Of a stretch of 63,077 nt of DNA, positions 24,425-51,600 are shown one piece after another (the first letter of the stretch is position 1; every line of letters begins with the position of its first letter). The translations under genes were made by a program, and so were the position numbers. The notes below the pieces were generated by a model. It ran no database searches, was not told where the DNA came from, and saw nothing but the letters and a program-made list of their open reading frames with translations. The stretch lies in the IMG/VR virus record IMGVR_UViG_3300044627_000701, positions 1 through 63,077 of that record; one strand, 5' to 3'. Source of the DNA: a virus.

Positions 24425-24454
24425 TTGATGTTACAGGGGAAATCACTGTACACG
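24425..24454 (+). promoter_or_regulatory. Weak candidate early promoter overlapping palindrome 1
   Basis: TTGATG at 24425-24430 and TACACG at 24449-24454 are 18 bp apart. The -10 sequence equals that of the promoter at 26023-26051 and lies inside the palindrome 24447-24460, so binding of a factor there would block the promoter. The match is modest, and this is only a candidate. Confidence 0.28.
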
Positions 24455-24460
24455 TGTACA
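24447..24460. promoter_or_regulatory. Palindrome site 1 (TGTACACGTGTACA)
   Basis: This is a perfect 14-bp dyad about 105 bp upstream of the first early gene. It differs from the four other sites only in its outermost base pair (T/A rather than C/G). The core GTACACGTGTAC is shared by all five. Confidence 0.75.
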
Positions 24461-24564
24461 CTGATTGCCTTGCCCCTACCTTGACAGTCTCAAGGTACTC
24501 AGGCAGAGGGAGAGGGCAGGGGGCATTCCGCCCGCCCGCAACTGCCATAGAAAGGCAACACACC

Positions 24565-25380
24565 ATGATTAACGTTACTGAGATCAAAACCGCTTCCCTC
24601 ACCTCTGAGGAGGCCGCCGCCTCGCTGGCGGTTGCGGCTCAAGCCGCCATTCAGGGCGATGACCAAACAAAGGCAGGCAAGGCGAAGGGTGCGGCGGCTG
24701 AGGCTGTCATGATTGCCGGCTTTAGTGATGACAGCGTTGCATCGCGGGAATGGTCCTTCGACGTCACCACCGGCAAGGGTGACGTTCACGAGCACGTGGT
24801 GACAATCGGTTATACCGAATTCGGTACCGAAACCGCCGCATGGGTGCTCAATGGCCAAGGTCAAGTTAGCCGGGTGGCGCAAGGGGCATACAAGCGTGGC
24901 ATGTTCCGCGCCATGTTCGCCCTGCCTGATGCTGTGCCGGCTGTGTGGACGATGACAGGCCGTGCCGTTGCACTGGCAAACGCTATTCGCAACGAAGGCA
25001 TGACAGCCCGCATTGAGGCGGGTGCGCTTAAGCTAGAGGGTGGCAACAGTGACAGGGCCAAGGCAATGCGGGAGGCGACCTCGCTTTCCGCCCTTCGCAC
25101 GGCGGCCAAGGGTGCTGCCGGTTCCAATCGTGACGCACCCCAGAACGACAAGAGCAAGGGGGAAGCTGGCCCCCGCGCCGCCACCCGCGAGGGAGTGTTG
25201 CGGGCGGCCTTCGCCGCATTGAGCGAGGTCGATGCGGGTGACGGTGCCGCGCTCAATGGTGCAGAGGTTGCCTTGCTCAAGGGGCTGGCCAAGGTGGCCG
25301 CCAGCATCGCCAAGGCAGAGGCTGAGGCCGAAAAGGCCGAAAAGGCTGAGGCCGCCCGCAAGGCAGCTCGCAACACCTAA
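24565..25380 (+). CDS. First early gene, unknown 271-aa protein
   Basis: The frame extends upstream to 24397, but ATG 24565 is preferred (MINVTEIKTASLTSEEAAAS), because the upstream stretch contains palindrome 1 and control DNA. The middle part (WSFDVTTGKGDVHEHVVTIG, YKRGMFRAMFALPDAVPAVW) looks like a folded domain, and the last 40 residues form an Ala/Lys/Glu helix. No family is recognised. It is alone between palindrome 1 and a strong terminator, so it is a separate early transcript, a layout typical of abundant or host-takeover proteins. Function is not claimed. Confidence 0.8.
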   Translation: MINVTEIKTASLTSEEAAASLAVAAQAAIQGDDQTKAGKAKGAAAEAVMIAGFSDDSVASREWSFDVTTGKGDVHEHVVTIGYTEFGTETAAWVLNGQGQVSRVAQGAYKRGMFRAMFALPDAVPAVWTMTGRAVALANAIRNEGMTARIEAGALKLEGGNSDRAKAMREATSLSALRTAAKGAAGSNRDAPQNDKSKGEAGPRAATREGVLRAAFAALSEVDAGDGAALNGAEVALLKGLAKVAASIAKAEAEAEKAEKAEAARKAARNT

Positions 25381-25387
25381 CACCCTA

Positions 25388-25411
25388 GGGGGAGGCCGCA
25401 ACGCCTCCCCC
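25388..25411 (+). other. Stable hairpin after first early gene
   Basis: GGGGGAGGC and GCCTCCCCC pair over 9 bp with a six-base loop, seven bases after the stop codon. It precedes the true terminator and may protect the mRNA 3' end. Confidence 0.55.
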
Positions 25412-25422
25412 GCTTCCCCCTC

Positions 25423-25456
25423 GCCCGCTAGGCCATGCGCCTAGCGGGCTTTTTTT
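25423..25456 (+). terminator. Strong rho-independent terminator
   Basis: An 11-bp perfect stem (GCCCGCTAGGC with GCCTAGCGGGC), a five-base loop (CATGC) and seven T form a textbook terminator. It isolates the first early gene from the repeat-rich region that follows. Confidence 0.93.
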
Positions 25457-25487
25457 GTGCCTGCCATCAGCGCCACGGCGGCCAAAG

Positions 25488-25650
25488 ATGATAGTGGGCT
25501 GAGCGGTAGGACTAGCCTGCATCTGGATGGCGCATTGCTAGTGTAAGAAAACCATAGGGCTGAACGGTGGTGTAAGAAAATGATAGTGGGCTGAGCGGTA
25601 GGACTGAATCTGTATTGTAAGAAAATGATAGTGGGCTGAGCAGTAGGACT
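25488..25650 (+). repeat. Direct repeats with a common 26-bp unit
   Basis: Copies at 25488-25513 and 25580-25605 are identical, and 25625-25650 differs by one base. The last two are 45 bp apart and are preceded by TGTAAGAAA. A degenerate copy (CATAGGGCTGAACGGTGG) lies at about 25553-25570. The unit contains ATAGTGGGCTGAGC. Such spaced repeats resemble iterons. Confidence 0.88.
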
Positions 25651-25653
25651 TAG

Positions 25654-25667
25654 CGTACACGTGTACG
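25654..25667. promoter_or_regulatory. Palindrome site 2 (CGTACACGTGTACG)
   Basis: Perfect 14-bp dyad placed directly after the third direct repeat in the candidate origin region. Unlike sites 3-5 it is not followed closely by a start codon. Confidence 0.8.
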
Positions 25668-26022
25668 ATAATCTAATGTAAGAAAAAACATACCGTAAGA
25701 AACGTATTGTGAGGTTCTTACGCCGAAAAAGTTATGCAACCACAACGGGTTAAGTGGTATCGTAAGATTGAGAGGCCAATTTTCTAGTTTTTAAAAGATA
25801 CCCGGATTCGCGGGCTTCTCCGCTGATACCACATCCTCTCAATAGGTTTTTTCCTATTTTTCCCCCCCTATATAATAAATCTTAAAATCTCCTCTCAATC
25901 TTACAATACAGAGCTAACACCTTGGTTTTATAAGCCGATTCGCGTAAGAAAGTGCGTAAGACGGCACTTTTGGGTTTCTCTCAATCTTACACTGCATTGT
26001 AAGATTATTTTCTTACAATAGC

Positions 26023-26051
26023 TTGACTTTGTTCCCCTTACGTGCTACACG
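26023..26051 (+). promoter_or_regulatory. Early promoter before 26141 operon
   Basis: TTGACT, a 17-bp spacer ending TGC, and TACACG. The same architecture (TTGACA, 17 bp ending TGC, TACAAG) occurs at 27344-27372, and in both cases a palindrome core begins 57-58 bp after the first base of the -10 element. Confidence 0.6.
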
Positions 26052-26100
26052 TAAGAGGTCAGGGCAACTCCGCCCTGCGCGACGAGCAACGTCGAAAATC

Positions 26101-26118
26101 ACCGTACACGTGTACGGT
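26101..26118. promoter_or_regulatory. Palindrome site 3 (18-bp perfect dyad)
   Basis: ACCGTACACGTGTACGGT is a perfect dyad whose centre is about 31 bp upstream of ATG 26141. In mRNA it could fold into a hairpin just before the ribosome-binding site. Confidence 0.85.
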
Positions 26119-26140
26119 ATGGTAGAAAGGAAATCTTACA

Positions 26141-26389
26141 ATGACCAACTGGAAGTCCTTACAGGACAGCAACCCTGAGCCTAGCTTGCTAGACGCTATC
26201 GCCCATGCGGAGAAGAAACAATTAGAGGACAGGCGCAGCCTGCATAACTTCATCAATGCGTGGGCCAAGGCAAACGGGGTGCCTGTGGTGGACGTGCCTA
26301 TGTCCGACCTGCCTATGCTGTTCGAGATGCCTAGCCTGAAGGACGCCGCGACATACATCGCCACTTTCGGACAGGGAGAGGACAAGTGA
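26141..26389 (+). CDS. Small early hypothetical protein
   Basis: This 82-aa protein starts MTNWKSLQDSNPEPSLLDAI, is mixed helical with an acidic/basic middle, and has no cysteines or membrane span. It is the first gene after promoter 26023 and palindrome 3, with AAGGAAATCTTACA before the ATG. Its stop overlaps the next start (GTGA). It may be an early host-interaction protein; no family is recognised. Confidence 0.7.
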   Translation: MTNWKSLQDSNPEPSLLDAIAHAEKKQLEDRRSLHNFINAWAKANGVPVVDVPMSDLPMLFEMPSLKDAATYIATFGQGEDK

Positions 26390-26529
26390 GCCGGAAATAC
26401 TGGGTCAACTGCCGTGGCGAGATGTTCTACCCCATCTATGCGCCCAACAAGCGCGAGGCGCTGCGGTTCTTCAAGAAACACTTTGGCTGGGACCGCCTGC
26501 CTGTCGGCACCGAGTGCGGTCTGGTCTGA
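26386..26529 (+). CDS. 47-aa early hypothetical protein
   Basis: This frame starts with GTG at 26386, overlapping the previous stop (GTGA). It encodes MSRKYWVNCRGEMFYPIYAP and a C-terminal helix (KREALRFFKKHFGWDRLP). It is aromatic-rich with two cysteines. The coupling to the upstream gene supports its reality. Function unknown. Confidence 0.62.
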   Translation: MSRKYWVNCRGEMFYPIYAPNKREALRFFKKHFGWDRLPVGTECGLV

Positions 26530-26566
26530 CGTGGCTATGCGCCATCCAGATGCAGCCTACGTTTAC

Positions 26567-26580
26567 CGTACACGTGTACG
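26567..26580. promoter_or_regulatory. Palindrome site 4 (CGTACACGTGTACG)
   Basis: Perfect 14-bp dyad extended by partial matches. Its centre is about 29-30 bp before ATG 26603. No recognisable promoter precedes it at the spacing seen for sites 3 and 5. Confidence 0.82.
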
Positions 26581-26602
26581 CTAACTGAGAAGGGACAAGA
26601 CA

Positions 26603-26785
26603 ATGGGTAAAGTCATCAAGCCTGTGAACCTGACGCAACGTGTGTGGGACCGCATGTCAAGGCGCGAGAAGGAGTTCATCGTCGAGCACGAGCGTATGCA
26701 CGAGAAGTTCCGCCAACGTGCGGGCTGCGGGCATATGAGCGCAGAAGAGCTGTTTCAAGCTATTATGGAGCAAACCAATGCCTGA
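26603..26785 (+). CDS. Small basic early protein
   Basis: This 60-aa protein (MGKVIKPVNLTQRVWDRMSR) is Arg/Lys/Glu-rich and helical, with HERMHEKF in the middle. It follows palindrome 4 and an AGAAGGGACAAGACA leader. It overlaps the next gene by eight bases. Its size and charge allow nucleic-acid binding, but no domain is recognised. Confidence 0.68.
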   Translation: MGKVIKPVNLTQRVWDRMSRREKEFIVEHERMHEKFRQRAGCGHMSAEELFQAIMEQTNA

Positions 26786-26972
26786 GTGCATATCCTGCGG
26801 AGAGACATACTCCGAGCGCCGCGCCCTGCTGGGCTACAACACCTGCCTGTCGTGTGGCGACTTCGCTGCGCGCGCAGTGAAATGGTGCAGCGCACCACTA
26901 AACAAGAGCAACTACGTTGTTATCACCAACAAGGCAGAGCTGACGATGCTCAACCCGAAGAGGACAAGCTGA
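26778..26972 (+). CDS. Small zinc-finger protein
   Basis: This 64-aa protein has two CxxC pairs, Cys4/Cys7 (PECISCGET) and Cys23/Cys26 (NTCLSCGDF), with a spacing that fits one zinc ribbon. The C-terminal half is basic and Asn-rich. It starts inside the end of the preceding gene and ends in a TGATG overlap with the next. A nucleic-acid or protein-binding adaptor role is likely. Confidence 0.7.
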   Translation: MPECISCGETYSERRALLGYNTCLSCGDFAARAVKWCSAPLNKSNYVVITNKAELTMLNPKRTS

Positions 26973-27340
26973 TGGGCTACCGTAGCGATGTGACGTTCGC
27001 CTTCTATGCGAACCCCAACAAATTAGAGATGTTCCCAGCTATCAAGCTATGGGTAGAGGAGAACTGGCCGAGGGAGGCAGACCCCTTCATCGAAAGCCGT
27101 GAGGGCATCATCACCGTCAAGTATGATGACGTGAAGTGGTATGATGACTTCGACTACGTGAAGGACGTATGGGCTGCCATCGAGCGGTTCGAGGCAGCGT
27201 TCAATACCGAGGATTTCGAAACGCATTGCGCCTGCTGGGAGTATGCCCGTGTGGGCGAAGAGAGAACCGATCTCGACTCTGGTGGTTCCGCCTACCACCA
27301 CTACCGTGTAGGTATCAGTGTCAGCATCACCGTCGACTGA
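26972..27340 (+). CDS. Early acidic hypothetical protein
   Basis: ATG 26972 overlaps the preceding stop (TGATG) and gives 122 aa beginning MGYRSDVTFAFYANPNKLEM. It is rich in aromatic and acidic residues (VKYDDVKWYDDFDYVKDVW, then EDFETHCACWEYARVG). Similar compact acidic proteins (MGYRSDV start) occur in other phages and plasmids with no known function. It ends just before the second early promoter. A DNA-mimic or host-inhibitor role is only speculation based on charge. Confidence 0.75.
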   Translation: MGYRSDVTFAFYANPNKLEMFPAIKLWVEENWPREADPFIESREGIITVKYDDVKWYDDFDYVKDVWAAIERFEAAFNTEDFETHCACWEYARVGEERTDLDSGGSAYHHYRVGISVSITVD

Positions 27341-27343
27341 ACC

Positions 27344-27372
27344 TTGACATTGTCCACCTACTCTGCTACAAG
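27344..27372 (+). promoter_or_regulatory. Early promoter for the MoxR/VWA operon
   Basis: TTGACA, a 17-bp spacer ending TGC, and TACAAG. The -35 is consensus. It starts immediately after the stop of the preceding gene and lies 92 bp before ATG 27464, with palindrome 5 between. Confidence 0.72.
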
Positions 27373-27421
27373 AAGAGGGTGAGGCGGGAACCAACCCGCC
27401 CCGGCCAACTAAGCAACCAAA

Positions 27422-27441
27422 TACCGTACACGTGTACGGTA
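27422..27441. promoter_or_regulatory. Palindrome site 5 (20-bp perfect dyad)
   Basis: TACCGTACACGTGTACGGTA is the longest of the five dyads. Its centre is about 32 bp upstream of ATG 27464. Relative to the promoter it sits in the 5' leader at the same position as site 3. Confidence 0.88.
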
Positions 27442-27463: not shown

Positions 27464-28540
27464 ATGACTTCAATCAACTTTGGTTCGCGTGTCTCTCTCA
27501 AGGAGGCAGCGCAGCTGATCGCTGCGGTCGGCACAACAAACAACGTCATGCTGCGTGGCCCCAAGGGCATCGGCAAGTCGAGCATCCTACCCATGATGCG
27601 TGAGTATCTGGGTGACGAATACGAATACGCCTACTTCGACATGACGTCGAAGGCCGAGGGTGACGTGGCTATCCCGTTCCCTGACAAGGAGGCGGGCGTT
27701 ATGCAGTTCTTCACGAACGAGGCGCTCAAGCTGCACACCGGCAAGCCCGTGGTTATCATGTTGGACGAGCTGGCCAAGGCACCGCGCAGTATCCAGAACA
27801 TGGTGCTGCCCATGTTGGAGAACCCAAGGCGCGTTGCAGATAAGCGCCTGCCTGATGGCACTATGGTCATTATCACTAACAACCTATCGGAAGAGGGGCT
27901 GGGCGATACGTTCATGGCGCACACCCTGAACCGCATGACTGTGCTGGAGGTGCGTCAACCTTCTGTCGAGGAGTGGCTGGTGTGGGGTGCTGGCAGCGGC
28001 ATCCATCCTGTTGTGCTGGCGTGGGTGAACCAGACACCCACTGCACTGGCATCGTTCCGCGATGACGACTTCGACGCAAGCAACCCCTACGTCGATAACC
28101 CCAAGCGTGTGCAGGTAGGCCAAGTCGTGACTCCGCGTTCGCTGGAGAAGGCATCGCACATCGTGTGGCAGCGTGAGAAGTTCAGCGAGAACACCCTGCT
28201 GGCTGCGCTTATCGGCACCATCGGTGAGCCTGCGGCGCGGGACATGCAGCACTACATCGCCTTCCAAGACGAGCTGCCTAGCCGTGAGCTTATCCTCAAG
28301 GCACCTGATACCGCACCTATCCCTACGTCCGTAGGTGCAATCATCACCCTGCTCTTCAACCTTGAGCGCGCAGTGGAGGCCGACACCATGTCGGCCATCA
28401 TGAAGTATGTGTCTCGCATGGAGGCCGAGCATCAGGCTGTGTTCTGCACCAGCCTCGCACGTAGCAAGACCAAGCAGACCATCGCCTTCCGCAATGGCGA
28501 CTTCACCAAGTGGGCGGCTGAGAACGCAGATATTTTGTAA
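27464..28540 (+). CDS. MoxR-like AAA+ ATPase
   Basis: This 358-aa protein has Walker A (RGPKGIGKSS, about 31-40), Walker B (VVIMLDELAKA, about 96-106), a sensor-like NN (MVIITNNLSEEG) and an arginine-finger region around NRMTVLEVRQPS. The order and spacing fit MoxR/RavA-type AAA+ ATPases, which form hexameric rings and work with VWA-domain partners to remodel or insert metal into target proteins. A VWA partner is encoded 0.9 kb downstream (29476-30705) in the same operon, with one conserved-looking gene between. Promoter 27344 and palindrome 5 precede it. The substrate is unknown. Confidence 0.88.
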   Translation: MTSINFGSRVSLKEAAQLIAAVGTTNNVMLRGPKGIGKSSILPMMREYLGDEYEYAYFDMTSKAEGDVAIPFPDKEAGVMQFFTNEALKLHTGKPVVIMLDELAKAPRSIQNMVLPMLENPRRVADKRLPDGTMVIITNNLSEEGLGDTFMAHTLNRMTVLEVRQPSVEEWLVWGAGSGIHPVVLAWVNQTPTALASFRDDDFDASNPYVDNPKRVQVGQVVTPRSLEKASHIVWQREKFSENTLLAALIGTIGEPAARDMQHYIAFQDELPSRELILKAPDTAPIPTSVGAIITLLFNLERAVEADTMSAIMKYVSRMEAEHQAVFCTSLARSKTKQTIAFRNGDFTKWAAENADIL

Positions 28541-28593
28541 TCCGTCAAGCCCTAGCGCCGCGCGCTTAGGGATAACACACTAGGAGCAAACCA

Positions 28594-29454
28594 ATGAGCA
28601 TCGCATCATCCTCCATGCTTGTGGAGTTGAACATCAGCGTCTGGACCGGCAACAAGGTGGACAAGACGGTGACCCGACAAGTGACCGACGACAACAGCGC
28701 CACCACGGACGCAGGTCAGTTCCGTAAGAACCTCACGGCAGGCTCGTCTCTCCGCAAGGAGCTGGCCGACTATGCTGCGGCTTGTCGCCTACGACACAAC
28801 CAGTTGACGATGGCATGGTCTGACCGTGGCCCGCGCCTGCTGCCCACCTCCCTGTTCTTCGACTACAAGTCAGAGATGAACGGTCGGCAGACCTACTTCA
28901 CGGACAAGGCCGAGGCGTTCTTTCGTGACTACCCACGCCTGCTGGCCGACGCACCCAAGCATCTGGGTGCGCTGTATAATCCAGAGGACTACCCGTCCGT
29001 CGAGGAAGTGCGTAGCAAGTTCGGCTACCGTCTGGTGTTTACCCCGGTGCCTGAGTCGGGTGACTTTCGCTTAGACCTACCACAGCAGGAGATGGCGGAG
29101 ATGCGTCGCCAATACGATGACGCCTTCGATGTCCGGCTGGCCGAGGCCATGCGTGAGCCATGGGACAGGCTGCACACCACGATCAGTGCGATGACCGACA
29201 AGCTGGTCAAGGTCGAGGCTGCGCCGGATGGGACGGTGACCCGCTGGCACGATACGTTCATCGGCAACGCCGCCGAGCTGTGCAAGATGCTGACCCACTT
29301 GAACCTGACCAAGGACCCCAAGCTGGAGCAGGCGCGGCGCGACCTTGAGAAGGCCATCGCTGGTGTGGACATCGACGATGTGAAGGAAGACGCAGGTGTT
29401 CGCACCGACCTGAAGGACAAGCTGAATACCATGCTCAAGCAATATGAGTGGTGA
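28594..29454 (+). CDS. MoxR-VWA cassette middle protein (DUF3150-like?)
   Basis: This 286-aa helical protein starts MSIASSSMLVELNISVWTGN and contains DKTVTRQVTDDNSATTDAGQ, RLRHNQLTMAWSDRGPRLLP, and a C-terminal coiled region (LEQARRDLEKAIAGVDIDD). Its position between a MoxR ATPase and a VWA protein and the VWTGNK-type start recall DUF3150, but I cannot verify this. The constant company suggests it is a substrate adaptor or a third complex member. The ribosome-binding site is the early-type AGGAGCAAACCA. Confidence 0.68.
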   Translation: MSIASSSMLVELNISVWTGNKVDKTVTRQVTDDNSATTDAGQFRKNLTAGSSLRKELADYAAACRLRHNQLTMAWSDRGPRLLPTSLFFDYKSEMNGRQTYFTDKAEAFFRDYPRLLADAPKHLGALYNPEDYPSVEEVRSKFGYRLVFTPVPESGDFRLDLPQQEMAEMRRQYDDAFDVRLAEAMREPWDRLHTTISAMTDKLVKVEAAPDGTVTRWHDTFIGNAAELCKMLTHLNLTKDPKLEQARRDLEKAIAGVDIDDVKEDAGVRTDLKDKLNTMLKQYEW

Positions 29455-29475
29455 TAACAACGTAGGAGCAAGACC

Positions 29476-30705
29476 ATGCAACCAGAACGCAAACTGAAGA
29501 AGGCCAAGATCGACGTGATGCGGTCGCAGCTACCGGGCCTGCGCCTGTGGGCTGGACTCATGTCGGTGGGCAAGACGAGCCTGTGCGACAATACCTCATC
29601 GGCATATACCAATGGGCGCGATGAGGTGTACGGCACTGCCTTCGTCGAGAAGCTGTCCGTAGCGGAGCTGTCCTTCGTGTGTCTGCATGAGGCTGTCCAC
29701 AAGGGGCTTCGGCACCTGACTACATGGCGCAAGCTGTTTGAGGCTGACCCCCAGCTTGCCAACATCGCTTGTGACTACGTGGTTAACCGCATCATCGTGA
29801 AGGCCGACCCCGGCGAGAGCGTGTGCAAGTTCCCGCGCAACCCAGATGGCACCCGCATGGGGCTGTATGACGAGCGGTTCGACGGCATGAGCGCCAAGCA
29901 AATCTTCGACATACTGAAGAAGGAGCAGGAGCAGGAACCCGACGGCCAAGGTGAGGGCAAGCCCGGTGAGCAAGGCGCAGGCCAACCGAGCTTTGACGAG
30001 CATGGCTGGGATGATGCCAAGGAGATGGACAAGGCAGACCGTGACGCGCTGGACAAGGAGATTGACCATGCCCTGCGCCGTGGTGAGGCCGAGGCCAAGC
30101 GGTGTGGCGCTGGCAAGGGTGATATGCCTGCCGAGGTAGGTGAGTTGCTGCGTCCTGCCGTCGACTGGCGCGCTGCATTGCGGGAGTTCTTCAACAGCCA
30201 CTGTGCTGCCAAGGACGAGGCGTCATGGCGCAGGCTCAACCGTCGCTTCGTGGGTATGGATGTGTATCTGCCTTCGATGCACGGCGAGTCGCTTGGCCAT
30301 GCTGTCGTAGGTGCAGACTTGTCCGGCTCGATGTGGTCAGGCGACCCGTCACCCATCAGCCGCATCTTCACCGAGGTGGTTGAGATTGCCAACACTACCA
30401 AGCCCGACAAGCTGGACGTGCTGTATTGGGATACGCAAGTAGCCGGCCACGATAGCTTTACCCAAGGTGACTACGATAGCCTGCTGTCCAAGGTGCGACC
30501 CAAGGGCGGTGGTGGTACGAGCGCCGAGTGCGTCCCCGTCTACATGGCCGAGCATAAGATCAAGCCTGACTGCATCATCATGGTGACGGACGGCCACGTC
30601 TTCGGCGGCTGGGGCAGCAACTACTCCGCCCCTGTGCTGTGGGTAATCATCGACAACCCTACGGTCGAAGCCCCTACGGGCAAGACCTTGCACGTAACCC
30701 TGTGA
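29476..30705 (+). CDS. VWA-domain protein with HExxH metallopeptidase-like N-terminus (DUF2201-like)
   Basis: This 409-aa protein has an N-terminal domain with HEAVH (His71, Glu72, His75), a zinc-metallopeptidase motif. An acidic Gln/Glu linker (about 148-200) follows. The C-terminal VWA domain has a MIDAS-type DLSGSM (Asp281, Ser283, Ser285), GGGGTSAECVP and VTDGHVFGGW. This order matches DUF2201 (putative metallopeptidase plus VWA-like). VWA partners of MoxR ATPases recruit targets; here the target might also be cut. It is cytoplasmic (no signal peptide) and expressed early, so a host-protein or replication-complex target is plausible. Confidence 0.88.
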   Translation: MQPERKLKKAKIDVMRSQLPGLRLWAGLMSVGKTSLCDNTSSAYTNGRDEVYGTAFVEKLSVAELSFVCLHEAVHKGLRHLTTWRKLFEADPQLANIACDYVVNRIIVKADPGESVCKFPRNPDGTRMGLYDERFDGMSAKQIFDILKKEQEQEPDGQGEGKPGEQGAGQPSFDEHGWDDAKEMDKADRDALDKEIDHALRRGEAEAKRCGAGKGDMPAEVGELLRPAVDWRAALREFFNSHCAAKDEASWRRLNRRFVGMDVYLPSMHGESLGHAVVGADLSGSMWSGDPSPISRIFTEVVEIANTTKPDKLDVLYWDTQVAGHDSFTQGDYDSLLSKVRPKGGGGTSAECVPVYMAEHKIKPDCIIMVTDGHVFGGWGSNYSAPVLWVIIDNPTVEAPTGKTLHVTL

Positions 30706-35545: not shown

Positions 35546-36151
35546 ATGACCGAATACACATTCACGCAAGACTGGTTCAGCCACAACATCCCTGTGTGGG
35601 AGCAGCTGGTTACGTTGTTACCGGGTACGCCGGGGCAGCGTAACTTCCTTGAAATCGGTTCGTTCGAGGGCCGCAGCGCCGTCTGGATGGCCGAGAACAT
35701 GATGACCGAGGGTGATAACCTTCGTTGTATCGACACATGGGAAGGCAGCGAGGAGCACAGCGCTGAGACCGTGCAGGGTATTGAAGATCGGTTCCGGCAT
35801 AATCTGGTTGTCGCGGCAAAGAAGTTCCCGCGCCGCCGTATCTTCCAGCACAAGTCCGCATCCGTGCAGGAGCTTGCTCACTGGTTGGTGGAAGCTCCCG
35901 AAGACCACCCGACTTTTGACTTCATCTACATCGACGGCAGCCATACTGCCAAGGATGTGCTGACCGACGCTTGCATGGCGTGGCCGCTGCTGAAGCAGGG
36001 TGGCTTGATGGTGTTTGACGACTACCTGTGGGGTGATAGCCGCGACATTCTCCATCGCCCTAAGATGGCTACGGACTTCTTTGTGAACACCTTTGCGGAA
36101 TCACTCGACATCGTTCACATCGGCCACCAGTTTGCGGTGCGTAAGAAGTGA
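35546..36151 (+). CDS. Class I SAM-dependent methyltransferase
   Basis: This 201-aa protein has motif I (FLEIGSFEGRSAVWMAENM, residues 34-52), an acidic ribose-binding site (RCIDTWEG), FDFIYIDGSHTAKDVLTDA, and GGLMVFDDYLWGDS. The layout matches Methyltransf_24-type enzymes, which often act on sugars or small molecules rather than DNA. A glycosyltransferase gene follows 0.2 kb later, so the two may add and methylate a sugar on one acceptor. The substrate is not shown. Confidence 0.82.
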   Translation: MTEYTFTQDWFSHNIPVWEQLVTLLPGTPGQRNFLEIGSFEGRSAVWMAENMMTEGDNLRCIDTWEGSEEHSAETVQGIEDRFRHNLVVAAKKFPRRRIFQHKSASVQELAHWLVEAPEDHPTFDFIYIDGSHTAKDVLTDACMAWPLLKQGGLMVFDDYLWGDSRDILHRPKMATDFFVNTFAESLDIVHIGHQFAVRKK

Positions 36152-36333
36152 CGGGTAACATTGTCAGTCGCCCCCGCAAGCCTGCTGGCTGGTGGACGCC
36201 TGAAAAGCGTCAGGTGGCTTGGGATATGTACGTAGAGGGTAAGCCCTTTGAGGAGATCGCTGAGCACTTTGGCGTGACCCTCGCCGCCGCTGCGCGGCAG
36301 GTGTACCAGCACAAGAAGGAGCAAACGAAGTGA
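36148..36333 (+). CDS. Small helix-turn-helix protein
   Basis: The start is GTG 36148, overlapping the methyltransferase stop. The 61-aa protein has WWTPEKRQVAWDMYVEGKPF followed by EEIAEHFGVTLAAAARQVYQ, a Myb/GcrA-like or sigma-like HTH at about residues 20-52. A basic end (HKKEQTK) follows. It could be an early transcription factor, possibly the one that binds the palindrome sites, though this is not shown. Confidence 0.75.
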   Translation: MTGNIVSRPRKPAGWWTPEKRQVAWDMYVEGKPFEEIAEHFGVTLAAAARQVYQHKKEQTK

Positions 36334-37122: not shown

Positions 37123-37848
37123 ATGACTAAACGAGCTACACAAGACTACGACTACGACCAGATCAGAGCTTTTTTGGAAGCCCACCCCGGAGACGAGCTT
37201 AAGGTGGTTGGTTATAAGCTGGGCATACCCACCAAGGCAGTCTGGCGTGTTTTCCAGTTGGATGCGCGCAAGGAAGACCCAGACTACGCTCCGCGTACCA
37301 AGACGAGCCTGATACTGAAGTATATGCAGGCGCACCCCCGGTGTGGTAACCTCCGCATTGCCGAAGTCATAGGCGCTAGTCGGGCGCTTGTGAACGACAC
37401 GCGCAGGCTGTGGAAAGACCTAATCGAAGACCCGATCACTGCTCCGCACTACGCGCCGGTCAAGCCGGCCAAGCGGTGTATTGAGTCTGCTCCCATGTAC
37501 CGGGTATTACAGTCGGAGCTGGAGTCTAACCCCATCTACCGGGCCCAGCAGCCGAAGTCCGAGCCCGTCGCCTGCGAGGGCAACACCATCGAGCAAGTGC
37601 TGGTCGAGCGTGGCAAGGACTACGGCGACTATGCTAGCAAGGCGCAGTTCATTCAGGGTGTGAAGTATCTTATGCGGAGCAGCCCCAGCTGGGAAGCCAT
37701 GGATGCTGATATGCGTGAGAGTATGGAGATGATCGCCCACAAGATGGGGCGTGTCGTGTACGGCGACCCGACGCACAAGGATAACTTCCTTGATATCGCT
37801 GGTTACGCCAAGCTGGTCGCAGACCGGCTTCAAGACAACGCAAACTGA
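37123..37848 (+). CDS. HTH-containing protein with a DUF6378-like C-terminus
   Basis: This 241-aa protein has two N-terminal HTH-like helices (DQIRAFLEAHPGDELKVVGY; AEVIGASRALVNDTRRLWKD). After a linker comes a C-terminal domain ERGKDYGDYASKAQFIQGVK, MEMIAHKMGRVVYGDPTHKD and NFLDIAGYAKLVADRL, which fits DUF6378, a MazG-like all-helical phage family. It may hydrolyse or bind nucleotides while its N-terminus contacts DNA. Its start has AAGGAGCAGACC. Confidence 0.72.
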   Translation: MTKRATQDYDYDQIRAFLEAHPGDELKVVGYKLGIPTKAVWRVFQLDARKEDPDYAPRTKTSLILKYMQAHPRCGNLRIAEVIGASRALVNDTRRLWKDLIEDPITAPHYAPVKPAKRCIESAPMYRVLQSELESNPIYRAQQPKSEPVACEGNTIEQVLVERGKDYGDYASKAQFIQGVKYLMRSSPSWEAMDADMRESMEMIAHKMGRVVYGDPTHKDNFLDIAGYAKLVADRLQDNAN

Positions 37849-42268: not shown

Positions 42269-42496
42269 ATGCGCGGCTACAGTATCGAAGTAGCCGAGGC
42301 TATCTGGAAAGGGGATAGGTCCCGTCTAGGAGTGCGCTTGGGCAAAGCTTGCATTGAGCGCCGTGTCCCGGTGACGAAAGTCGCCGGGGCCCTAGGGGTG
42401 ACTCGCCAAACGATCTATAACTGGTTCGTAGGCGCGTACGACCCTGCCGAGTCCCATCGGGAAGCGGTAGAGAAGTTTTTAGCCAGTCTCGACTAA
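42269..42496 (+). CDS. Small HTH DNA-binding protein
   Basis: This 75-aa protein contains a Cro/CI-like HTH (PVTKVAGALGVTRQTIYNWF, about residues 34-53) and a C-terminal helix. It follows the ssDNA-binding-like gene by three bases. Candidate phage regulator; it could bind the palindrome sites or the hexamer cluster. Other HTH candidates exist (36148-36333, 37123-37848). Confidence 0.78.
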   Translation: MRGYSIEVAEAIWKGDRSRLGVRLGKACIERRVPVTKVAGALGVTRQTIYNWFVGAYDPAESHREAVEKFLASLD

Positions 42497-45581: not shown

Positions 45582-45629
45582 CCCGCCGGCTGTAGGTCTC
45601 CCCCATGACCTCGCCGGCGGGATTTTTTT
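45582..45629 (+). terminator. Terminator between the converging arms
   Basis: A 9-bp stem (CCCGCCGGC with GCCGGCGGG) with an inner five-pair stem (AGGTC with GACCT) is followed by A and seven T on the plus strand. It ends early transcription just before the stop of the giant late gene. The minus strand lacks a T-run after the hairpin, so termination of the late arm is less certain. Confidence 0.9.
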
Positions 45630-48600
45630 ATTGGTCCTTCAGCATCTCGTTGGCGCGCTGTTCCGCCAACGGCTGGCGCACGGGAATTTTCGGGTTGAAG
45701 CCCAGCCCGTAAGCGCGCTCCCCGGCTACCTTGCTCTTGCTCTGGAACGACTTGTCCTTGTCTTCCTCGGTGATAGTGTTCGAGGGGAAGTTCATGTTGT
45801 AGATGGTGATGTCCCGCTCGACGCGCTTCCAGTTTTTCAGGTTCTCGTCCGTGGGCTTCTTGTTGAACTCCAGCACCGCACGATACCGCTGGTCAAGCAG
45901 CTCAGTCGCCTGCTTGCCTACCTCTTCTTCGATTTCTCCAGCCTTGATGTCGAGCTGCATAGCCCGCGATGTGCCGGCCTCGGTGAAGCCCGCCGACTGT
46001 AAAGCCAACGTGTAAACGTCGTAGAAGCTAGGGTCCTTAAGGACGACGTCGCGGTTCTTACCTACGACCAGACCTTCTTCCTCCAGACGCGCGGCCTTGA
46101 ATATATTCTTCAGGGCGGCGGGCATTACCGCTTCAACGGCCTTATCAAGGTTACCCGCGTTGGCTTCTTTCCAAAACCGGAAAAAGGCAGCGGGGACCGC
46201 CGCCGAAGGGCCAAGTACCGTGCGGCCCAAGGTCTCAAGGAACATAACTTCCGGGTCATCAGACTTAGACGGCGTGGAGTGCCACAAGTCGTTCAACGAC
46301 ACCGAACTGGAGATATCCACCCCACCAAGGGCGGGCAGACCCATGTCAGCCATAGCCGCCAGCTTCGCTGCGGCTTCGGGGCTAAGGCCAAGTGCGTTTG
46401 CAAGCGTACCGCCCGGACCAAACGTCTCCGGAATCCACACCGACCGGATGAAGTAATCCATGTCCTTCTTGGACAGCTCTCGGCCCTTCTCGTCCGCAAA
46501 TTTCAGCATCTCCCGCTGGATGGTTTTCTCGGAGACGTAGCCGCCTTCGATCTCCTTCTCTTCTTCATCGTCATCGTCGCCAAAGGTTTCCTTGACGAAC
46601 TCGTAGATGCCGTATGCGCCCAAGGCCAGCATGTAGAACTGAGAAGCGCGCAGGCCGCCGAGGAGCGTTGTCATCGCGGCAACACCAAAGAACATCCGCG
46701 CAGCCGCCAGCTTGCCTCCCTTGTTCCTCTGGAGCGGTATCATACCCACAAAGCTACGGAGCAGTAGCGACGTCATCGACTGGCTATACGAGCGCATCTG
46801 GAGCGGCAGACGGCCCGCGCGCGACTTTGCGTAACGTGACTTGTTCCAGTTCGAGAAGTCAAACATGGCCTTGCTGGTCAGCTTCTCGGCCAGCTCACGT
46901 GCTTCCTTACCGGCATCCTTGGGTGTCTTGCCCTGCTTGATGGCGCGCTCGTAGGCCATGTCGAACGCCGACATAACCATGATTTCGCGTCCAATACGCT
47001 CAAAGGTATGGAAAGACGCGCCAAGGAGTTGGCCGGTGTTAGCCACGGCAAGCTGCGCTGCACTGGCGGTGTCGCCACGGCGCAGAGACTGCATGAAGCT
47101 GAACTTATCCGAAGGCTTATTACTACGCTCGTATATGTTCGCGCTTGCCGTAAAGGTGCTCTGTGTAACGTCGCGCTCTTCAAAGAAGCGCCACGCCTTC
47201 ATCAGTTCGCCGTACCGAGTAGGGTCGGTCTTACGTAGCTCTCGGATGTACGGGCTGTTCTCCAGTGTGAACTTCGGTGTCTGGAGTTTGAGGTTGCCGT
47301 CCTTATCCTTGAACGGGTTACCCATACGACTCCCGGTGAGGAAGGTACCCATGTAACGCGCCATCGTAGCCGTAGTGGCAGCCTCACCAAACTCAGCAGA
47401 AAGCGTAGGCAAACCAACGATGGGTAGCTGGAGCAAGTTTACCACCGCAGACTTCGGCGCAGAGAGCAGCAGGTAGAAGGTCGCCTTGGAGCCCAAGCTC
47501 AACCACCAGTCGATGGTTTTTTGTGGGTCCGGAGACAGAATCCCTTTCACGCGCAGCGCCATTTCCCGCGTGATGGTGTCCAACTTGGCCTTGCTTGGAC
47601 GCCCTTCGGTCTCCTTGAGCCCGGCTGTGATAAGGTTGTCGAACTTGTAGTTAAACGCCAGCCGCCCCAGCTGGTTAGCCGAAGCGATGGAGGTCGACGC
47701 ATAGGTGCGCAGCAGGTCGGTGCTGAAGCCGGTCTTGAAGCTACGGTGGATAAACCGCCGCCGCATGTCGGACTCCGGAAGAGCAGTCAGGTACAGCTGA
47801 AGGACACTCTCCTCCAGTACGTCCACGTCTGCCGCCTTACCGTCAGCGATAAGGTCCAAAATATTTTTCAGCGCCGCACTGGCGTCGTTCTTGGTGAGCT
47901 CCTTGCGCAAGGTGTCACGGCCAAAACCGGAGCTGACGTCACGGGTATCTTTGTCTTCGCGCAGCTGCGCCATGAAGGCTTCTTGGGCGGTGAGCGACTC
48001 GAACATATGGAACTCGCCGGTCTTACCCTTACCGACCGTTACCCAGTACTCCCCGAAGCGTTTCAGGGGGAAGTAGATGGTACGCTTCTTGGCTTCAGCG
48101 AACATCTTCTCCACCGCGCTCTTAAGCTTGATCCGATCCTCAGACTTGAGATCGGCGGCGTTAATACGCGCCATAAGCAGCCGGTAGTGCTCGTCGAAAG
48201 TTTTGCGGTACTCATCGCGCAGCATACGGAACATCTGCTTACCTGCGCCGCCGCCAAACTCGGGGCGCGACAGATCGTTCCAGCCGTAGACGGTTTCTTC
48301 GGTCTGCTCGTCAACACCGCCCGTGTACGCACGGCGGATTTCCCCCTGACGGGTGCTGATGTTGTTTTGTATCGCAGTCCGTTTCTTAGGGTCCGTTTCG
48401 CTGGCAAGTTCCGCTTTGAGTTCCGCCAGCTTGTTGTCGAGCTTGAAGTACTCGGTGGCGTTGGGTGCCAGCGACGGGTCTACATCGACCATGTTTGCGT
48501 AGATAACGACATCAGTCAGCGCCTTCCCGCCCAGCTCCGTACGGGACAGGAAGTCCGCCAGTTTCTCAGACGTTTGACTGGCGTTCAAGACCATACGGTT

Positions 48601-51600
48601 GACGTAGGGTATGTACTCATTACGCATGAGGTCGTCGATACGCTGCACGTTCTTCAGGCCAAGGGCGTTGGCGAGACGCACCACATCCTCAGTCATCTGC
48701 GGCCCAAGCAGTTTCTGGAGCGCCGAGGGGCCGCTAACGCTGTTGAACAGGCTGGTAAGGATGTTACCATCTTCGCTGGGGTTGCGCGCGATGAGCATGA
48801 GCTTGCCCATCAGGCTCGTCGTTTCCTCCGCACTACGGCTACGCAGAATACGCTTCTGCATACCGGTGATCTTCATCCGACGGATGCCAGCGGCTTCCTC
48901 CAGCCTCTTGGTCTGCGCCTTGGTCAGCTTGGCAGCTGCTACCTTGTTGACGGTGGCGTTGTTTACGGGTTGCGCGCTACCCTTAGCGCCTGTTCCGCGC
49001 TTGCTCCCGCCTCCAGTGCCGCCACGACGTTCATAAGCTGGACCGAGTAGGGATTCCCCGGTGCCTCCTTCTCCGCGAGGTCCGCGTACGTCCCCAGCTC
49101 CGCTATCGCCTGCTCCCTCGGGTGCTTGCTCCGGGCTGCCATCCGTAAAACGGTTTCCGCGATATTCAACGCTGATGTCTGGGTTTTTACCATTGAAAAG
49201 CTCCACGCCCAACTTGATGATATCTGCGTAATCCCTTGCGATGGCTTCCGCAAACGTTGCCTTGAATGTGTAGAAGTCGAAATTTGTGTCTGACTCCATG
49301 TTCAGCAAGATGTCCTGCATCTCGGCAGGGAAGTCAGCATTATGATTGCGCACCCTGTGGTGCGCAAGCTCGTGGACCATGGTACCAAAGATGCCGTAGC
49401 CCGCGCGCAGCCCATCCGCATACTTAGGGACTAGCGGGTTGATAAAGCTACCGGAGAACGGCAACCGGATTGAGACCCCGCGATACTCCGGGTCGAAGGA
49501 GACACCAATGGCTTCGTCGCGGAGACCCCTGTAACCCATGACACGAGCGACCTCGTTACGCAGGGTGAGGAAGGTTGCGCCGTTGTACAGCATAAACTCA
49601 TCAAAACGCACGCCCAACTGGCGGCGCATGTAGTCTGGGATCGACAGTTTTTCACCAGTAGCGTTAATGACTACGTCGGCGTTGTCGTGAACCATGACCG
49701 AGTTGGTGTCGATAAGGTCCGGATCAATTTTTAGCTCGCTAGCGCTAGGAATACCCGCCTTCAGTTCGTCCGGAGTCAGCTCAGGCATCGGCTGGCCGTT
49801 AACCAACAGCGCACCGTTCTCATCGACAGTGATCTGATCGCCTACGGTAACCCGTGTAAAGGACGTGTCCTGCACCGGGATACTTGGAGTCAGGTCAATT
49901 ACGGGGCCAAGGTTACCCCGTGCATCAAAATACTGAACGTTACCAAAGCTCGTGGCTTCACCCGCCCTGCTCTTGTAGGCGTAGATGGCGTCGATATACT
50001 TCTTGATCTTACCAAAGTCCCTCTTGGCGTCATCGGTAAAGTTCTGGCGATTAAAGTTGAACGGATATCCCGGCTCATCCGGTTTTACCGAAGGCACGAT
50101 ATCCACGTAGAACCGGTACGGAACCGGATCACTAAACATGTTGGACGGGTCTTTGTTGACATCAGTGGAGAACTGCCACAACCCGTTTGACAGGATGTGC
50201 ATGTTCCGACCGTACTGCTGCCCGGTCTGTTCGCGGGTGACATAGACCTTAGCCACACCCCACGGAAACTTTACCCCGACAAACTGGGTATAGTCTTGGG
50301 CTGGGAAATTGGCACCAACATCAACTGTTCTGGGACCGCGAACGGTACTTCCATCAAAAGTTACCTTGATATTTGCAAACAGCGGGCTGAGTCCTAGCGA
50401 AGCAATTTCATCTAGGTAGCGCGGGAGCTCTTTAATTTTGTAGTCACCGGACTCTTTAGGGATGGTTAGCTGGATAATAGTGCCGTGCCCGTCCGGAAAC
50501 GCCAACTGATCTACAGGTTCGAGCTCCCGGATTTCAATATTCGGGGCCTGATTAGGGTCGTCCAGCGCAGCAAAAAGCTGCTCACCCGTCACATCCATCT
50601 CAGCGATGCGTCCATCACGCGCCGTGGAGACACGGATGTTCTTGTTGGCATAGAGGAACAGCATCTTGGCGATACCGAAGCCGCCAGCGTTCTTGTCGCC
50701 TTCCTTGGCGGTACCAGCAATTTCAAGGAATTTGCCGCCCAGAAGCTCGGGCGTCATACCAATCCCGTTATCCTTGACCGTTAGGGTGCGGCCATCTTTC
50801 GAGATGGTGATACTAATCTCGCCCTGCGTAATCTGACCGCCGTTGATCGCTGTACGGGTGGCGTCGAACGAGTTCTGCAAGACTTCCTTGATGCAGACCT
50901 GACCCATATTGGTGGGGTCGCCGTAGAGCTGCGGACCCAACATCTTAGCCATGCGGGTGGCATTAATTCCCGGCTTGGCGCGGATCGTCTCATACTCAGG
51001 GGTGTACGGTGTAACCTGACCGACCATGTCCTCCTTTGGCATGGCGTCAACTTCCGCCTGCGCCATGTTAAGGACTTTTTCAGCTACGGTCTTACCCGGC
51101 TTGCGTTTGATAACCGCCTTGACCTGCTTGGCCTTCTTAGCCGGAGAAACAGGAGCGACCTTAGCAGGCGCGGCCTGTGCGGCAGCAACGCTATCCTGCG
51201 CCCACTGGATACCAGCTTTGTATGCGTCGAGAGCTTCCTGCCCTAACCCTTCGAGAATTTGCTGGTCAGGGATAGGCTCAACACCATTGGCAACGTCACG
51301 CGCGCCTTCAGTGAACATACCAAATCGGTCGGTATTGGGCTCGTACCCACGAGACTGGGCTTCGGGCACTGAGAAATATGTAAGGTGCTCCGCAATCTGC
51401 TGCGGGGTGTATTCCGGTTCGGGTGTAGGCGCAGCCACAGATGTAGGCTCAGGCGCAGCCACAGACGTAGGCTCAGGCGCAGCAGCGGTAGCGGTAGCGG
51501 TAGCGGTAGCGCGTTCGGGGATAGCAAAGCCCCGGTTCCGTAGCAGGGTATCAACCACTGCGGCGGCGTCTACATCTTGCCCCTTGGCCAGTTGATTAGC

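Follow-up and report, generated by a model that had tools for sequence, protein, structure and literature searches.

Five palindromes in the early region of a phage genome as predicted operators of a swappable, phage-encoded regulator

The viral record IMGVR_UViG_3300044627_000701 (positions 1 to 63,077, analysed as one stretch of 63,077 nucleotides and hereafter called the window) carries in its early region a small family of palindromes centred on CACGTG, which raises the question of what reads these sites and with what effect on the genes around them. Our answer, to which we give a probability of roughly two in three, is that they are operators of a phage-encoded regulator of early genes, likely the product of the gene at 24565–25380, in a predicted protein–operator pairing that can be swapped among related phages. 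The 12-base palindrome GTACACGTGTAC is present in five exact copies, all within 24448–27437 (cores beginning at 24448, 25655, 26104, 26568 and 27426), against an expectation of 0.0033 for the whole window under a first-order model; across 300 simulated windows, no palindrome of this length exceeded two copies. An initial annotation had described the palindromes as confined to 3 kb, and a genome-wide scan bore this out, finding no further copy with up to one mismatch; the sole other match at two mismatches lies at 53653. The dyad lengths it gave (14, 14, 18, 14 and 20 bp) and its coordinates, which are the starts of the longer dyads, were also right, and its distance of 29–33 bp between the site centre and the start codon at sites 3–5 agrees with the measured 31.5, 29.5 and 32.5 bp. 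The motif strings, sought in literature text, gave only two matches, both unrelated.

Comparison with relatives indicates from the DNA itself that the palindromes are a family of DNA operators. A near-match DNA search of the phage collection returned no near relatives of the window, and phages with the same motif were found by an exact motif scan of viral contigs: a contig identical to the window (L053), a 59-kb relative with all five sites (G007, L033) and a partial relative with two of them (G008, L042). More distant phages have the same core within other flanks (CTACGTACACGTGTACGTAG in L005 and L031; ATTCCGTACACGTGTACGGAAT in G006 and at one site in G001). A scan with the MoxR protein retrieved two further phages, G009 (L062, 62 kb) and G010 (L063, 32 kb), in which there is no copy of the window motif, even allowing one mismatch, and in which other palindromes (CGAACCGGTTCG; GCCGTAGCGCTACGGC) occupy the equivalent positions. 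Read in the DNA, these are five GTTAYCCRAACCGGTTCGGATAAC-like copies in G009 and seven TTTGCCGTAGCRCTACGGCAAA copies in G010, which lie ahead of the first gene, within the iteron-like stretch and some 30 bp upstream of the same start codons. Early genes of both phages are mostly 80–100% identical to those of the window (for G010, the majority of early proteins are 93–100% identical), and in the aligned leaders the palindrome is replaced while the promoter, a GC-rich hairpin, the ribosome-binding site and the start codon are kept. Conservation in close relatives, on which the initial annotation had staked its reading, applies to the positions of the sites and not to their sequence, which was swapped wholesale in G009 and G010. 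Since all sites changed in concert, a trans-acting factor with altered specificity is implied.

Which protein, then, follows the operator? When every window gene was tabulated against the relatives, the gene at 24565–25380 followed the operator split best, its product being 95% identical in G007 versus 29–33% in G009 and G010. One additional locus (L185) shares the window allele (88%) together with the window's operator, type A, at site 1, and another (L186) carries the G009 allele together with the G009 operator. Compared with each other, the proteins of G009 and G010 have 69% identity and a nearly invariant C-terminal end, and are least alike at residues about 1–60 and 121–160. The initial annotation had instead named three helix-turn-helix (HTH) proteins as binders to be tried, and this part is not supported, as none of the three tracks operator type. 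Those at 36148–36333 and 42269–42496 are 92–93% identical to the window in both G007 and G010 despite the differing motifs (the latter has the same sequence in these two phages), and the HTH part of the protein at 37123–37848 is absent from G008, which has the window motif, and hardly differs between G009 and G010, whose motifs are not alike. Across relatives, this last protein keeps a C-terminal DUF6378-like part, with an HTH region that is exchanged or absent. On these alignments the 24565–25380 product is a better candidate than the HTH proteins for recognition of the palindrome.

The sites are also placed regularly with respect to promoters, which in the window are consensus matches to sigma70-like pairs with inferred start points. 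The centre of site 1 lies at about -62.5 from the inferred start of a TTGACA-N17-CAGAGG pair, i.e. upstream of it, an arrangement that had been overlooked; a similar TTGAC-containing stretch is present in L062 and L063. Sites 3 and 5 are centred downstream, at about +51.5 from a TTGACT-N17-TACACG promoter and about +52.5 from a TTGACA-N17-TACAAG promoter. The similarity of these two promoters had been recognised correctly, and the distance from the first -10 base to the core start needs a small correction, from 57–58 bp to 58 and 59 bp. Each window promoter has a site at one of the two positions (about -60 or about +53), and none has both. Site 2 has no clear promoter before it and no gene directly after it, and a search for a promoter belonging to site 4 found none. 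Overall there is good support for the suggested early regulon and its fixed geometry.

A comparable arrangement was found in a second lineage, reached through a terminase-based scan of related phages. Many of these have a gene of 150–320 aa in the corresponding place, each with its own palindromes: seven copies of ACCTAACAATTGTTAGGT in L131, two of a AAACTTATAGTCGACTATAAGTTT-type in L118, four of a TATAAACACGTGTTTACA-type in L137 and a 26-bp perfect palindrome three times in L113. In the same palindrome scan, simulated sequence never gave more than two copies, and the cultured TerL relatives DSL-LC04, 023Pt_psg01, HTVC027P, HTVC023P and Pag-Yong1 had no comparable palindrome family. The second regulator family, recognised by the signature H-[SN]-NP-x3-W-x2-[VI]-[RK], was detected in 110 loci, and 80 were kept for analysis. 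CTAACA-TGTTAG half-sites were present in all 80, nearly always with a one-base spacer (CTAACA-N-TGTTAG), and the 75 related loci without a second-family gene held 4 CTAACA-type sites in 752 kb. Seven of nine long relatives had 17–26 copies, one had 10 and one, with the even-spaced type (G018), had none; the reversed pattern, as a control, gave zero copies in all nine.

The spacing of the half-sites varies, and so do the regulators. Two-base spacing was found in L240 and L244 and also in L131 and L151, both from the terminase scan, and the regulators of these four are altered as well: L131 and L244 share a loop insertion, L151 has a long insertion and L240 a W-to-M change. In L220 the half-sites are mostly zero-spaced and the regulator has no obvious insertion. 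Two second-family members with a diverged helix (L102, L137) lack CTAACA sites, L137 having its own palindrome, and no CTAACA sites were seen with two partial genes (L105, L125). The association of the second-family gene with the CTAACA operator, as judged from sequence, is strong. In one contig (L132) the regulator gene occurs twice, at 16–537 and 1583–2110.

The geometry of the second lineage was evaluated for 338 sites in a non-redundant set of loci. Promoter pairs peak with the -10 lying 50–80 bp upstream and 50–70 bp downstream of the site centre; at clear own promoters of the regulators the sites lie mainly from -56 to -79 and from +45 to +63, with site-to-site spacings often of 110–145 bp. 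Further sites are inside genes or in short gaps, where a roadblock or nucleation of looping would be the likelier role. Window sites 1, 3 and 5 fit this layout. An AlphaFold model of the second family (predicted local distance difference test score, pLDDT, 77) has four N-terminal and two C-terminal helices, the fourth N-terminal helix being the conserved HSNPSxxWxxVRKY stretch. Foldseek gave nothing significant for this model (best E 1.3) and VIA-align only middling Z scores (5.6 at most), and the fold is accordingly unassigned rather than shown to be new. Neither the second-family nor the window regulators had a convincing PHROG or Pfam match, and a tblastn search of 50,697 phage records found no relatives of either family; for the second family there were also none in 72,556 plasmids or in a single-protein scan of bacterial genomes. 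The parallel between the two families is one of position and geometry rather than of demonstrated homology. The features of the window are listed in Table 1.

Table 1. Predicted operators, promoters and adjoining genes in the early region of the window
Feature	Position	Strand	Sequence or product	Context
Operator site 1 (predicted)	24447..24460		14-bp dyad TGTACACGTGTACA	Ahead of putative regulator gene
Promoter-like pair	24481..24509	+	TTGACA-N17-CAGAGG	Putative regulator gene; weak -10
Putative regulator gene	24565..25380	+	271 aa; candidate reader of the palindrome	First gene behind site 1; co-varies with operator type
Operator site 2 (predicted)	25654..25667		14-bp dyad CGTACACGTGTACG	Within iteron-like non-coding region
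Promoter (consensus match)	26023..26051	+	TTGACT-N17-TACACG	Upstream of site 3; conserved across operator types
Operator site 3 (predicted)	26101..26118		18-bp dyad ACCGTACACGTGTACGGT	Leader of 26141..26389 gene
Small early gene	26141..26389	+	82 aa, unknown	Behind site 3
Operator site 4 (predicted)	26567..26580		14-bp dyad CGTACACGTGTACG	73-bp gap inside transcription unit
Small early gene	26603..26785	+	60 aa, unknown	Behind site 4
Promoter (consensus match)	27344..27372	+	TTGACA-N17-TACAAG	Upstream of site 5; conserved across operator types
Operator site 5 (predicted)	27422..27441		20-bp dyad TACCGTACACGTGTACGGTA	Leader of MoxR-like gene
MoxR-like gene	27464..28540	+	AAA ATPase	Behind site 5

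Several other features of the region and of the genome were seen. A GC-rich hairpin opens the leaders of all three promoters (24515–24545, 26063–26080 and 27383–27400; e.g. GGCGGG-aaccaa-CCCGCC) and is almost invariant at sites 3 and 5 across phages with differing operators; it is possibly a 5' stabiliser or an antitermination element. The AT-rich non-coding stretch at 25480–26145 contains many TGTAAGAAA / TCTTACA repeats on both strands, as it does in the relatives, and resembles an iteron-bearing replication origin; the start codon at 26141 is overlapped by one TCTTACAATG copy. Behind site 5, 27464–30705 holds the MoxR-like ATPase gene and genes for DUF2201 (metallopeptidase-like plus VWA-like) proteins. 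On the minus strand, 45628–53883 encodes a 2751-aa virion protein that combines a part resembling the N-terminus of N4 vRNAP, a GHKL ATPase domain and a DarB-like part, in place of which G009 and G010 have versions of about 1900 aa.

Starting from what the sequences show, namely the sites, their replacement in place, their geometry relative to promoters and the way gene types go with operator types, we infer the following working. A probably dimeric DNA-binding protein, encoded behind site 1 and produced early, would bind all five palindromes: about 52 bp downstream of the sigma70-type promoters at sites 3 and 5, within a transcription unit at site 4, within the iteron-rich non-coding stretch at site 2, and, at site 1, some 62 bp ahead of the promoter of its own gene. 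As its gene lies directly behind site 1, the regulator is probably autoregulated. Once accumulated, it would most likely repress rather than activate, damping its own and the other early transcription units through DNA loops between sites, through a block to elongating RNA polymerase, or both. The protein and its operator would be exchanged as a module among close relatives.

Several points weigh against this proposal. The window promoters are consensus matches with unmapped start sites, the direction of control is argued by analogy, and binding and expression are predictions. The 271-aa protein has no match in Pfam or PHROG profile searches and hence no recognisable DNA-binding domain, and its AlphaFold model, built from five sequences, was too poor for use (pLDDT 46); its candidacy thus comes from association and not from fold. 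Profile comparison between the window-type and second-family regulators found no detectable similarity. The operators of G009 and G010 look unrelated, yet their regulators are 69% identical. The virion protein at 45628–53883 also separates type A phages from those with types B and C, the operators of G009 and G010 (B versus C, 83%), and just these three operator alleles are known for the window type.

Two other roles for a protein bound at these sites were considered, and both seem unlikely. The sites could be operators of a lysogeny (superinfection-immunity) repressor, similar to the L5 stoperators, in a temperate or carrier-state phage whose early region is silenced. The dispersed early-region sites and the existence of specificity groups among close relatives do resemble the cluster A immunity systems (PMC6550527, PMC9283540). 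However, no tyrosine integrase (PF00589), serine resolvase (PF00239) or ParA (PF13614) was matched in 13 records including the window, in searches whose positive controls worked, though the records may be incomplete; the lack of second-family relatives among the plasmids and in the bacterial-genome scan also speaks against such a repressor. Alternatively, the same protein could be an activator or dual regulator of early or middle promoters. Site 1, at about -62 from a promoter with a poor -10, has the position of a class-I activator site, but positions from +45 to +63 and intragenic sites are unsuited to activation, and the distance of site 1 differs by 4–5 bp among the alleles (partly from hand counts).

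Readings in which no such regulator is involved appear far less probable still. The centromere site parS is TGTTTCACGTGAAACA, with the core CACGTG, so that a ParB-like protein on parS-like palindromes might partition or condense the phage DNA. The shared core fits this, as do three TGTTCCACGTGGAACA-type sites in a relative, L113; these parS-like sites lie at 1857–2114 of that locus, apart from its 26-bp palindrome family. The other alleles, however, are centred on ACCGGT, AGCGCT or CTAACA-type sequences, linkage to promoters and start codons would not be expected of a centromere, and ParB_N was unmatched in 14 possibly incomplete records (positive controls again worked), as was ParA (AAA_31) in the 13. 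It is similarly hard to credit that an RNA polymerase encoded by the phage or carried in the virion uses the palindromes as promoters, in the manner of the early hairpin promoters of N4, even though the palindromes stand about 30 bp ahead of start codons, the N4 vRNAP family profile aligns in its N-terminal part with the 2751-aa protein, and MoxR relatives are present in N4-like phages. That match is limited to profile positions 182–491, a stretch that is not a polymerase core, and a phmmer search of all solved structures returned no polymerase for the protein, although a very divergent core could escape such a search. Moreover, sites 3 and 5 are downstream of sigma70-like promoters, by eye no directional element adjoins the palindrome, and the large protein is 83% identical between G009 and G010, which have no motif in common. 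The initial annotation had left open whether the sites work as operators or as RNA hairpins in leaders. For the hairpin, sites 3 and 5 are inside leaders, just ahead of the ribosome-binding site. The DNA level is favoured, because site 1 precedes its promoter, site 2 has neither a clear promoter before it nor a gene after it, and type B copies have substitutions in one arm without a matching change in the other; in addition, even-centred palindromes have no natural loop, and an RNA role is improbable to much the same degree as the two preceding readings. The second lineage is neutral between a DNA dyad and an RNA stem: in 81 sites with one mismatch a pair is broken, usually the outermost one, and three of ten two-mismatch sites are compensated.

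Returning to a phage-encoded early regulator as the preferred reading, a wider and distinctly more tentative version can be put forward, namely an immunity-like circuit of early repression in phages without detected lysogeny genes, with specificity diversified by allele swapping and with regulators of an undescribed DNA-binding fold. If true, co-infecting relatives would not shut each other down, and superinfection exclusion would operate without lysogeny. The preferred reading itself would define an apparently undescribed regulator–operator system common to a large set of uncultured phages, and it raises the question of why operator specificity is diversified, in the manner of temperate phages, where no lysogeny genes were detected. 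The operator sequence and its cognate gene would provide a handle on early-gene control in this lineage, and the alleles would offer a natural series of orthogonal protein–operator pairs.

Among known systems, the L5 stoperators and the MrpR/SPBRE system of SPbeta would, by analogy, work most alike. As in L5 and other cluster A phages, a phage-encoded protein would be paired with many dispersed sites at early promoters and in short intergenic gaps, and in both systems the binding-site specificity differs among related phages (PMC6550527, PMC9283540). In L5, however, a monomer with an HTH at its N-terminus binds 13-mers that are asymmetric and directional (PMC6550527, PMC9283540), whereas the window sites are perfect or near-perfect palindromes rather than orientation-dependent 13-bp elements, the 24565–25380 product has no HTH of a known family in sequence profiles (Pfam/PHROG), and integration and partition genes were not found in the 13, possibly incomplete, records. 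On three counts, the symmetry of the sites, the family of the repressor and the lysogeny genes, the system thus does not qualify as a member of the L5 family. In SPbeta, too, a repeated intergenic element was found in silico, and its SPBRE repeats are bound by MrpR, a phage regulator of unexpected, tyrosine-recombinase fold that governs prophage lysogeny (PMC10516654); neither this fold nor a lysogeny gene was detected in the phages studied here. The layout of the second lineage further recalls the gal operon, where operators separated by 113 bp, at -60.5 and +53.5, are bound by GalR dimers that repress via DNA looping, GalR being a LacI-family host protein that needs HU (PMC4693257). Predicted operators at about -60 and +53 occur as a pair at the own promoters of many second-lineage loci, and in the window each promoter has one of the two positions only; the phage proteins differ in having no LacI-family match, and looping by them is suggested by the analogy. 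Taken together, the two regulator families apparently represent an undescribed type of early-gene control that is widespread in uncultured phages.

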